Positions 2,854-51,900 of a stretch of DNA of 64,000 nucleotides are shown piece after piece; the stretch's first letter is position 1; each line of letters begins with the position of its first letter. The notes under the pieces were generated by a model. That model saw only the letters and a program-made list of their open reading frames with translations, was not told the origin of the DNA and searched no databases. The stretch comes from Erysipelotrichales bacterium (GTDB taxonomy: Bacteria; Bacillota_I; Bacilli_A; Erysipelotrichales; Erysipelotrichaceae): positions 62,001 to 126,000 of the forward strand of contig CAJTFG010000003.1 of assembly GCA_910575705.1 (NCBI GenBank). Direction: 5' to 3'. Both the position numbers and the translations under genes were made by a program.

Positions 2854-3546
2854 CTATTTCGCCTCCTTTGCTAAAGCTGCCTGTGCAGCCTCTTGCGCTT
2901 TTTTCTTCTTTTCCGCTTTTGCCGTCTTGGCATTTTTATAACCGGCCAGCGCCGCTGCCAGCAACGCAAACGTCACAAAGGCTCCAAACGGCTGATTAAA
3001 TACGGATATGACATAATCTTCGGGAATGATGCGGAACTCAAAGATCATCTGTGTCGCATCAAAGGGATTTGTAAAATTCAAAACCCCGGTAGAAATGACC
3101 TGACGGATAACGGACATCACGATCAGGGAACACGTATATCCAAGCCCCATTCCCAAACCATCAAGTGCAGAATCAAATACGTTGTTTTTGCTGGCAAAAG
3201 ATTCCGCTCTTCCTAAAATGATACAGTTTACGACAATCAGCGGGATAAATACCCCCAATGCCGTATCCAGACTGGCCGCATATGCTTTGATCAACATCTG
3301 AATGATCTTAACAAGAGTGGCAATAACAACGATATAAACCGGAATGCGGATCTCATTCGGTGTGATATTACGAATCAATGAGATGATCACATTGGACATG
3401 ATCAATACGGCAATAACCGCAACCCCCATACCGATCGCATTATTCAATGTCGTTGTAATAGCCAGTGTCGAACAAATTCCCAAGTACAATGAGAAGACAG
3501 GATTTTCACGGATGAACCCTGCCGTAAAATTTTCTTTACGATTCAT
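2854..3546 (-). CDS. rnfE: Rnf complex integral membrane subunit E
   Basis: A 230-residue homologue of RnfA with six predicted membrane helices. The paired Cys positions are present as LGICSTLAITTTL (about C25) and PLIVVNCIILGRAE (about C108). The last 35 residues are a Lys/Ala-rich cytoplasmic tail (KNAKTAKAEKKKKAQ), longer than in most RnfE proteins. An AGGAGGG site precedes the ATG. It lies between rnfG and rnfA in the standard C-D-G-E-A-B order. Confidence 0.96.
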   Translation of the reverse strand: MNRKENFTAGFIRENPVFSLYLGICSTLAITTTLNNAIGMGVAVIAVLIMSNVIISLIRNITPNEIRIPVYIVVIATLVKIIQMLIKAYAASLDTALGVFIPLIVVNCIILGRAESFASKNNVFDSALDGLGMGLGYTCSLIVMSVIRQVISTGVLNFTNPFDATQMIFEFRIIPEDYVISVFNQPFGAFVTFALLAAALAGYKNAKTAKAEKKKKAQEAAQAALAKEAK

Positions 3547-49888: not shown

Positions 49889-49931
49889 CTTTTTCCCATG
49901 TCCGTGTATGTGAACATCATTTTTATAATAC

Positions 49932-50005
49932 AAAGACGCCGATATCAGAAACTTAAAAGTCATAGGATGAAGATCCTCGTCACAATAAGAACTTGAAGCG
50001 TCTTT
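49932..50005. other. Long inverted repeat (74 nt) between tfoX and the cassette array
   Basis: AAAGACGC (49932-49939) pairs with GCGTCTTT (49998-50005); inside is a second small hairpin AGGAT-GAAG-ATCCT. T-rich on both outer edges, so it can work as a terminator in either direction, or be a small structured RNA or the left boundary of the array. Confidence 0.5.
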
Positions 50006-50069
50006 TTATATCCTCAATCATTCCTTTCCCACCAGAACCTTTTCTGGTTTCTCTTAGGATTTCTACATT

Positions 50070-50312
50070 GAGCCGGACGCTGATAAGAATGTACAAGACT
50101 GGCTAGATGGTCCATACAAGCATAGCCAGGGCCTGTAGGTCCAAAAAAGTGAAGATTGGTAACAGGAGTAGAACCAACAGGAAGCAGATACCAAAGGTTT
50201 GTATTATCCACCCCTACAAAGTGCAAGGTATTGATATGACTGCCTGCTGTAACGCCTCCAGTACAATTACCGCATGCAATAACAACCGTTTGATATCCTA
50301 CAGAAATCGTGC
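50070..50312 (-). pseudogene. Cassette 1 of the silent C-terminal cassette array
   Basis: On the minus strand it runs from the 11-bp start core (50302-50312) to the 17-bp end core (50070-50086), 243 bp. It encodes STISVGYQTVVIACGNCTGG ... PVGSTPVTNLHFFGPTGPGY ... HSYQRPA. It is a close copy of cassette 3 (same length, scattered changes, about half of them altering amino acids). There is no start codon at the left edge. Unlike the others, the frame runs on after YQRPA for 17 more residues (QCRNPKRNQKRFWWERN...), because the sequence after the core is different. Confidence 0.7.
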
Positions 50313-50538
50313 TATAGCTGATCCAAGTACTTGGGATTGATGATGCTATATCCTACCTTTTTCTATATCATAACAGAAAACATAGATAGTATCCTTAACA
50401 ATATATGAAAACTATTATATAGGAAGATCGAATATATCGTTTGATTAAATCTTGTATATAAAATAATTCTATATAAAAACATTACAAACTACTGCATACC
50501 AAATACGTAATATTCTTTTCCCTCTGTATCTTATATAC

Positions 50539-50560
50539 AACTATGATATATACCATAGTT
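50539..50560. repeat. AACTATG/CATAGTT inverted repeat after cassette 2
   Basis: AACTATGATATATACCATAGTT, with 7-base arms. An identical copy follows cassette 4 at 51452-51473 and a decayed one follows cassette 3 at about 51012-51033. On the minus strand it lies 10-20 bases past the YQRPAL stop codon, so it is part of the repeating unit. Confidence 0.75.
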
Positions 50561-50574
50561 TCCTAACATTTACA

Positions 50575-50841
50575 GAGCCGGACGCTGATAAATAATAGCG
50601 GTAGGGGTGGTTACAACATATGCGCTGCTATTGATGCAGTTATAACCGGACTGGCCGTAGTAAATAGGATTGGTAGATGCAAAAGAATGGTTTCCGGAAG
50701 ATGAACTCCAGTTTAATTCCCACTTTACTCCTAGGATCGAAGGGTAATAAAAAGCGGGGTTTAGATTGCCGGTGCATTCGTACAGAGCAGTACAACCAGT
50801 TGAATGGGTAACCGATATTTTCTGATGAGAAGAAATCGTGC
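50575..50841 (-). pseudogene. Cassette 2 of the silent C-terminal cassette array
   Basis: From the start core (50831-50841) to the end core (50575-50591), 267 bp. It encodes GTISSHQKISVTHSTGC ... SILGVKWELNWSSSSGN ... TTPTAIIYQRPAL and stop. The interior is unlike cassettes 1, 3 and 4. An ORF of 104 residues can be opened at 50884, but the 14 codons before the core are not conserved in frame with the other cassettes. Confidence 0.7.
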
Positions 50842-50925
50842 CCATTACAATGGAACTCCTACCCTCATTTTCCTTTCCTACCATTCCTCACCATTTAATG
50901 AAACTCTAATCTCATGATCATTTTT

Positions 50926-51020
50926 TTACCTACCTTTATATAAAGGATACCAGATACTATGGAAATAGTTGCTAGCAATATTGGATATGAAAACCTCTGT
51001 ATTTTATATAGAACTATGAT
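50926..51020. repeat. Conserved intercassette spacer, copy 1
   Basis: About 95 bp (from TACCTACCTTTATA through ATACTATGGAAATAGTTG and GATATGAAAACCTCTGTATTTT) is repeated at 51364-51460 with roughly 90 percent or more identity by eye. It lies between cassettes 3 and 2. Confidence 0.75.
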
Positions 51021-51047
51021 GCTTACCTCAGTTATCTAATCTATACA

Positions 51048-51290
51048 GAGCCGGACGCTGATAAGAATGTATAAGATTGGCTCGATGGTCCATACAAGCA
51101 TATCCAGGACCTGTAGGTCCAAAGTAATAAAGATTGGTAACAGGAGTAGAACCAACAGGAAGCAGATCCCAACGGTTTGTATTATCCACTGCTACAAAAT
51201 GCAAGGTATTGATATGACTGCCTGCTGTAACGCCTCCAGTACAATTACCGCATGCAATAACAACCGTTTGATATCCTACAGAAATCGTGC
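51048..51290 (-). pseudogene. Cassette 3 of the silent C-terminal cassette array
   Basis: From the start core (51280-51290) to the end core (51048-51064), 243 bp. It encodes WCTISVGYQTVVIACGNCTG ... VDNTNRWDLLPVGSTPVTNL ... HRANLIHSYQRPALYRLDN. It is the twin of cassette 1. The frame can be opened back through the spacer to 51417, but that leader is spacer sequence and not a plausible protein start. Confidence 0.7.
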
Positions 51291-51363
51291 ACCATAGAAA
51301 CGAACTAACATTATAATGGAACCCCGATCCTCTCCATAGCAAACGAATCTCGGTCCAATGGTT

Positions 51364-51460
51364 TTTACCTACCTTTATAGAAAGGATACCAGATACTATG
51401 GAAATAGTTGTTAGCAAATATTGGATATGAAAACCTCTGTATTTTGCATAGAACTATGAT
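51364..51460. repeat. Conserved intercassette spacer, copy 2
   Basis: The second copy of the 95-bp spacer, between cassettes 4 and 3. It differs from copy 1 by a few substitutions and one base of length. Confidence 0.75.
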
Positions 51461-51473
51461 ATATACCATAGTT
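51452..51473. repeat. AACTATG/CATAGTT inverted repeat after cassette 4
   Basis: Identical over 22 bases to the repeat at 50539-50560. Confidence 0.75.
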
Positions 51474-51487
51474 TCCCAACATTCACA

Positions 51488-51745
51488 GAGCCGGACGCTG
51501 ATAAAGTCCCCATGTAGAATGTATAATATCTATTGTACGGCTAGTAGTATCAACACGTCCCTTGGAGAGAATCGTTGCCGCCTGTTTAGAACCACTTGGA
51601 CTGGAATCCCAAACTTCTTCCCATGATTTATCCGGCATGACACGAGGCCATGAAATAGCAGGTAACGCAGGATCTTTGCAGTTATTTTCGGAAGTAGTAC
51701 ATGTGTTTTGCACAGGAAGGATATATCCATGTGCAGAAATCGTGC
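51488..51745 (-). pseudogene. Cassette 4 of the silent C-terminal cassette array
   Basis: From the start core (51735-51745) to the end core (51488-51504), 258 bp. It encodes WGTISAHGYILPVQNTC ... PRVMPDKSWEEVWDSSPSGS ... IDIIHSTWGLYQRPAL and stop. The interior is unrelated to the others. An ATG at 51797 with AAAGAAAATG before it opens a 104-residue frame; GACTGGGATTCGTT upstream resembles the region before cassette 3, so the leaders are also homologous but decayed. Confidence 0.7.
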
Positions 51746-51900
51746 CCCATAGAATTCCACACCTATCCCGCAATAGTGAACGAATCCCAGTCCTCATTTT
51801 CTTTCTCTTTCAACCTGCCTTTGCAATCCTTTCTCTCTTACCCACTACCTTTTATCTAGCATAGCAGCTAAAACTGTCATATTCAACTACAGAAAAAGAA

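Follow-up and report, generated by a model that had tools for sequence, protein, structure and literature searches.

A genome-wide library of silent cassettes that probably serves one slot in a giant surface protein of an Erysipelotrichales bacterium, with a possible role of a DGR-type reverse transcriptase

Introduction

A row of short minus-strand reading frames with common edges and differing interiors occurs in the genome of an Erysipelotrichales bacterium. Such a locus raises the question of which expressed gene the fragments serve and by which route their contents would reach it. The window, i.e. the whole stretch of 64,000 nucleotides analyzed, corresponds to C3:62001-126000, where C1, C2 and C3 denote three of the 11 contigs that make up the 1.85 Mb genome. 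The original prediction considered the frames a shufflon- or gene-conversion-like silent reservoir of four members, exchanging the C-terminal end of one expressed surface protein.

The cassette array in the window

Positions and edge cores of four minus-strand cassettes (243, 267, 243 and 258 bp) were confirmed, and a credible start codon is absent from all four, as had been noted. The array had been assigned to 49889-51900; positions 49889-50010 lie outside it. It comprises the following features:

50011-50082, minus strand: RNA-like hairpin 3' of cassette 1, overlapping its 3' core (model R1, 42.3 bits, E 2e-8; this copy is also part of the R1 training alignment)
50070-50312, minus strand: silent cassette 1 (TISVGYQTVV...HSYQRPA), 243 bp
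50070-50084, minus strand: 3' core of cassette 1
50302-50312, minus strand: 5' core of cassette 1
50313-50574, no strand assigned: spacer 5' of cassette 1, hairpin 2 included, ending in CCCAAGTACTTGGATCAGCTATA
50520-50587, minus strand: RNA-like hairpin 3' of cassette 2 (R1, 81.0 bits, E 2.6e-18)
50575-50841, minus strand: silent cassette 2 (TISSHQKISVTHS...IIYQRPA), 267 bp, 89% identity to C1:600325
50993-51060, minus strand: RNA-like hairpin 3' of cassette 3 (R1, 80.4 bits, E 3.8e-18)
51048-51290, minus strand: silent cassette 3, 243 bp, a 93-94% near copy of cassette 1
51433-51500, minus strand: RNA-like hairpin 3' of cassette 4 (R1, 76.0 bits, E 5.1e-17)
51488-51745, minus strand: silent cassette 4 (TISAHGYILPVQN...GLYQRPA), 258 bp, 80% identity to C1:346640

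On the coding strand, the window cassettes start with GCACGATTTCT (TIS) and end with CAGCGTCCGGCTC(TG) (QRPAL). Cassettes 1 and 3 are indeed near copies (93% identity over 251 nt), with no comparable match to cassettes 2 and 4. On its 5' side, cassette 1 shares 34 bp with the expressed gene described below, core counted in, and CCCAAGTACTTGGATCAGCTATA at the spacer end equals the sequence immediately upstream of the expressed slot. A 17-bp right core had been proposed. A conserved core is present there; the trailing ATAA of the 17-mer is not conserved genome-wide, and the full 17-mer occurs 11 times in the genome. The reported 22-bp inverted repeat is real; it is the inner of the two stems of a conserved hairpin beginning inside the right core. 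An Rfam search of the array yielded chance matches only, and a plasmid BLAST yielded no match.

The spacers between cassettes, e.g. at window positions 50850-50990 and 51300-51430, contain recurrent modules, each ~28 nt long (GAGGAnnGGGGTTCCATTATAAGGTG and the like). In about 40 cases, they also carry a promoter-like block, TATCTGGTATCCTTTCTATAAAGGTAGG.

The genome-wide library

A whole-genome search for the two cores, which the original prediction had named as a check, revealed that they recur throughout the genome. The 5' core AGAAATCGTGC has 128 copies (2 for a reversed-pattern control), the 3' core CAGCGTCCGGCTCTG (15 bp, coding strand) 110 (0 for the control). A cassette has a 5' core of 11 bp (GCACGATTTCT) at one edge and a 3' core of 12-15 bp (CAGCGTCCGGCTCTG) at the other; the near-invariant 3' part genome-wide is CAGCGTCCGGCT, usually followed by CTG. 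An in-frame 3' core lies 162-276 bp downstream of the 5' core in 126 of the 128 cassettes. Sequence conservation falls off sharply beyond either core, the perfect 5' core being partly a matter of construction as it was the search key, which the 3' core was not. Scanning genome stretches for the 3' core added about ten cassettes with one 5'-core mismatch, and another is located at C1:713121. Together, the exact 5' cores and the one-mismatch variants amount to at least 139 cassettes rather than a reservoir of four. The 128 are grouped into 62 arrays with one to seven members each, dispersed over the chromosome on both strands, and the library of at least 139 donors occupies, spacers included, about 3% of the chromosome. 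The interiors fall into 72 clusters at a 50% similarity cut and have TIS, a GS/SS pattern, QRPAL and little else in common.

The lack of starts would suit decaying pseudogene fragments of an old gene family, without any switching, as would four degenerate cassettes among the 128 (stops, a frameshift or a damaged 3' core). However, the remaining 124 frames are intact, whereas a stop is present in 127 of 128 equal-length stretches immediately 3' of the cassettes. The cores are nearly invariant, a silent cassette matches the expressed copy exactly (see below), and dN/dS is 0.10-0.65 in 15 of 16 near-copy pairs and 1.07 in the remaining pair. The probability of mere decay is close to nil. Judged by these ratios, the silent cassettes are under purifying selection, which would hardly be explicable unless they are sometimes expressed.

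The assignment of the cassettes to DUF6273 was rejected: the likeness is at the motif level only, and the profile comparison was not significant. Segmental chimeras between cassettes are few and lack a clear polarity. In viral contigs, a search for the 3' core plus TA gave two chance matches in unrelated sequence.

The origin of replication was placed at C1 ~510.2 kb (DnaA boxes, rpmH, GC-skew switch). Within 250 kb of it, equal to 27% of the genome, lie 84 of the 128 cassettes, of which 69 run counter to replication and 15 along with it. In the rest of the genome, 34 are oriented with replication and 10 against (Fisher p 1e-10, near vs elsewhere). The expressed surface gene is co-directional with replication.

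The expressed gene

A single one of the 128 cassettes lies inside a long open reading frame, C3:197065-176531 on the minus strand. The expressed partner is located outside the window, as anticipated, about 50-70 kb past its end. The encoded protein has 6,844 residues and begins with MKKFMPK. By eye, its N-terminus resembles a signal peptide, long regions are rich in repeats and a membrane segment lies at the C-terminus; the protein is predicted to be a secreted, membrane-anchored surface protein. Residues 311-386 come from the cassette, whose place is internal and close to the N-terminus. The complete gene with a cassette that had been looked for does exist; it does not end in the cassette, and the proposed exchange of a C-terminal end is contradicted. 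Pfam and NCBIfam yielded no significant match to the N-terminal 522 aa. A contig scan with the expressed N-terminus gave a sole weak match in another phylum, at a calcium-loop-like motif.

The pair of a sigma factor gene and the giant gene also occurs in another genus of the family (G086), in which the counterpart of the cassette stretch reads PTWIDYQTI...STRAGG...VIRPALYF. An RT similar to that of the cassette genome was not found in G086 at E 1e-20. In both genera, the sigma factor gene is of the ECF type, has a C-terminal extension and is located directly upstream of the giant gene (L082:16182-17258 (-); L088:1969-2946 (-)).

Evidence for copying

The expressed cassette and silent C1:633032 are 100% identical over all 230 bp, and the two loci share 26 bp on the 5' side and 17 bp on the 3' side, cores counted in. 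Complete identity is likewise found in three pairs of distant silent cassettes. Two of these pairs have flanks that are unrelated on both sides beyond the cores, with 11-13 bp (5') and 15 bp (3') in common outside the interior. The third, C1:489765/C1:622202, has the 3' hairpin in common and differs in the 5' flank. Transfer proceeds by copying, because donor and copy both persist. On the evidence of the identical pairs, cassettes are copied between silent sites as well. With one genome of the genus as the comparison base, we infer that copying runs from silent to expressed sites and that switching takes place in living cells. The cassettes very probably form a silent library serving one expressed surface-protein slot. 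The idea of a reservoir has thus withstood the tests that could be applied to it, because the expressed copy matches a silent donor and the cores recur genome-wide.

Gene conversion of the RecA type, in the style of pilS/pilE or vls/vlsE, would treat the cores as minimal homology and the RT-Avd operon described below as unrelated or as a decayed DGR remnant. Similar silent-cassette systems are well known, the donor is retained in the present genome, and conversion accounts for the donor-to-slot copy with its 26 and 17 bp of common sequence. Donor homology to the expressed gene is mostly 11-17 bp (5') and 12-18 bp (3'). At least 26 bp of 5' identity is found in 15 silent cassettes; this could suffice for RecA and is a counterpoint to a route via reverse transcription. 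Against conversion stand the two identical silent pairs limited to 11-13 and 15 bp. Homology of 11-15 bp is very short for RecA.

A probable structured RNA element at the donors

A hairpin of 68 nt follows nearly every silent cassette on its 3' side and starts inside the 3' core. It consists of an outer 7-bp stem, an inner 9-bp stem and a 4-nt loop, most commonly AAGY. Among 61 diverse copies, 92.7% of the cells are paired and 14 of 16 pairs show compensatory changes, the alignment being partly selected by outer-stem pairing and the unselected inner stem providing the cleaner evidence. None of 500 shuffles reached the observed values, and sliding the partners abolished the signal. On the coding strand, the inner stems contain 93 G.U vs 18 A.C combinations (65 vs 15 in the 61-copy set); in both cases the copies are related and the counts are not independent. 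G.U is tolerated in RNA, while a DNA cruciform would treat G.U and A.C alike. The G.U excess on the coding strand therefore suggests selection on the hairpin as a sense RNA.

A terminator-type T run is absent from the hairpin. Neither inspection nor a search with model R1 revealed a hairpin after the expressed 3' core, and R1 gave no significant match near the RT-Avd operon. RecA-type conversion does not explain why an RNA-selected hairpin accompanies nearly every silent cassette and is missing at the expressed one. It is the main rival to the reverse-transcription route and is regarded as possible, if rather doubtful.

Reverse transcriptase and recombinases

The genome contains one reverse transcriptase, with a small gene directly upstream (C2 ~179.0-180.7 kb). 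The best solved relative of the RT is the Bordetella phage DGR enzyme (3.6e-43 vs 1e-14 for the next family); the structure, 8ub7, we take to be this enzyme, its table entry reading reverse transcriptase only. The RT has GxxxSQ and YMDD motifs. The small gene is Avd according to Pfam bAvd (46.5 bits, cut-off 40); NCBIfam DivGenRetAVD matches it at 8e-11, under its cut-off. The operon is solitary among housekeeping genes, and no template/variable repeat pair was found within the 8 kb examined around it. Close relatives of the RT are absent from 273 genomes of the family, in which the best match is that of a canonical DGR at 41% identity, and from 392 genomes of the phylum (best 37%). A 10-bp inverted repeat (TGTGTGAATC...GATTCACACA), recognized by eye in the avd-RT leader (L101 ~2945-2890 (-)), is possibly regulatory.

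Just before GxxxSQ, at the position of bRT I181, the enzyme has a Gln that is unique among 89 aligned RTs; the others have mostly Val, Ile or Leu. Replacing I181 of bRT reduces misincorporation at adenine, and accurate RTs typically have Gln at this place. Differences between near-copy cassettes involve A in 58, C in 65, G in 55 and T in 74 cases, and these even changes agree with an accurate RT of the Gln type.

Adenine mutagenesis among the cassettes was rejected since no A-bias is present, while the positive-control DGR shows it clearly. In a canonical DGR of a same-family genome (G234:C20, L111), whose RT is the closest found (41%), 39 of 51 template-to-target changes are from A.

Three tyrosine and three serine recombinases are encoded in the genome, and both cassette edges are short, constant and sharp, as expected if such an enzyme exchanged cassettes site-specifically at the two cores. 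A recombinase beside the expressed copy had been suggested as a check; PF00589 and PF00239 searches of the whole genome gave no match close to C3:176-197 kb. At least two tyrosine enzymes are Xer-sized (housekeeping), and the longer ones resemble mobile-element integrases. Moreover, the cores are not inverted repeats, and retention of the donor would be left unexplained. Exchange by a recombinase is therefore highly improbable. A shufflon, integron or invertase was judged unlikely, the recombinases all being far from the expressed gene.

Proposed mechanism

RT-Avd is the presumed copying machine, on account of its character and its co-residence in one genome with the cassettes, without physical linkage. 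A silent cassette would be transcribed in sense together with its 3' hairpin, and this RNA would correspond to the template RNA of a DGR plus the spacer on its 3' side. RT-Avd would recognize the hairpin and start reverse transcription near the 3' core, yielding a cassette cDNA. In the giant gene, this cDNA would take the place of the cassette residing between the two short cores, while the donor stays. Silent sites would be overwritten likewise, hence the identical silent pairs. As adenine mutagenesis is lacking, the outcome would be a library switch rather than random mutation, and its role would presumably be the variation of a surface ligand or antigen. In DGR homing, about 8 bp of 5' identity is enough (PMC3240598), and homing rebuilt in E. 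coli is RecA-independent (PMC12875486); both properties suit edges of 11 and about 15 bp. The full reading, in which RT-Avd copies cassettes into the slot via RNA in a non-mutagenic exchange, is considered fairly probable. That a DGR-descended RT faithfully copies at least 139 hairpin-tagged, dispersed RNA templates into one slot, probably without RecA, has slightly better than even prospects.

A counterpoint to the RT route is the position of the hairpin, which is found next to silent cassettes but not next to the slot in the expressed gene, whereas the DNA hairpin of BPP-1 lies 3' of the target with its IMH. Because the BPP-1 hairpin stands beside the recipient, the flow might be reversed: RT-Avd would use RNA from the expressed cassette to overwrite silent sites marked by the hairpin, which would serve as an archive, with recall by another route. 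Identical cassettes in differing silent flanks, which indicate overwriting of silent sites, speak for this reading. However, the hairpin appears selected as RNA and yet is missing from the expressed mRNA. In addition, DGR targets in E. coli have a preferred orientation, which the expressed gene shares; most cassettes near oriC face the other way. An archive is accordingly deemed very improbable, and copying by RT-Avd from silent donors into the expressed slot is preferred.

Comparison with known systems

Shufflons and integrons likewise have interchangeable gene segments with constant edges, and the hairpin at the cassette end recalls attC. Unlike them, the present system has no dedicated recombinase near the expressed gene and no inverted core sites, copies instead of inverting or excising, and has cassettes dispersed on both strands.

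Further parallels are vls/vlsE of Borrelia, pilS/pilE of Neisseria and msp2 of Anaplasma, with one expressed gene, many promoterless partial copies, retention of the donor in copying and a surface protein as product. In those systems, the donors form one or few arrays with about 90% identity, whereas here they are distributed round the whole chromosome, have unrelated interiors and mostly offer homology restricted to 11 bp and about 15 bp. The system also differs in the DGR-type RT encoded in the genome and in the RNA-selected hairpin that accompanies almost all donors. The vls array of Borrelia B31 comprises 15 cassettes (PMC3585125); the repertoire of at least 139 donors is much larger. The system is a silent-cassette system of unusually large size and a new variant of that type. 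No precedent was found in the open-access literature searched, the coverage of which is incomplete.

DGRs of the BPP-1 type share the type of RT (closest solved relative bRT) plus Avd, the replacement of a short segment between short ends, a GC-rich element at the 3' end and a structured element just 3' of the repeat. In a DGR of the same family, the target segment (DUF6273) also ends in an RPAL-like motif. DGRs have one or few template repeats, in contrast to at least 139 dispersed donors here, none of which lies by RT-Avd. Here, moreover, adenine mutagenesis is lacking, Gln occupies the bRT I181 position, the hairpin is beside the donors and not the target, and the exchanged segment is inside a giant protein and not at a C-terminus. 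Tests for adenine mutagenesis and for a linked template/target pair, both of them defining features, were negative, and for this reason the system was not filed as a DGR; it may still work like one.

If the RT route is true, the bacterium switches cassettes faithfully by means of RNA templates drawn from a library spread over the genome, a combination not found described. Silent-cassette switching and DGRs, two textbook modes of surface variation, would be joined in one system, and a DGR enzyme could change from mutator to library reader. Antigen or ligand switching would be programmed, without mutagenesis and probably without RecA. Short cores, an RNA tag and an enzyme suggest a compact RNA-programmed tool for segment replacement, and the residues or RNA parts deciding between faithful and mutagenic retrohoming become testable.

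In the canonical DGR of the same-family genome (L111; repeats at 1-110, 2549-2671 and 3015-3137), a single template accompanies two variable repeats, which lie in DUF6273 genes. At least one of these target genes has a TIR-like N-terminus.
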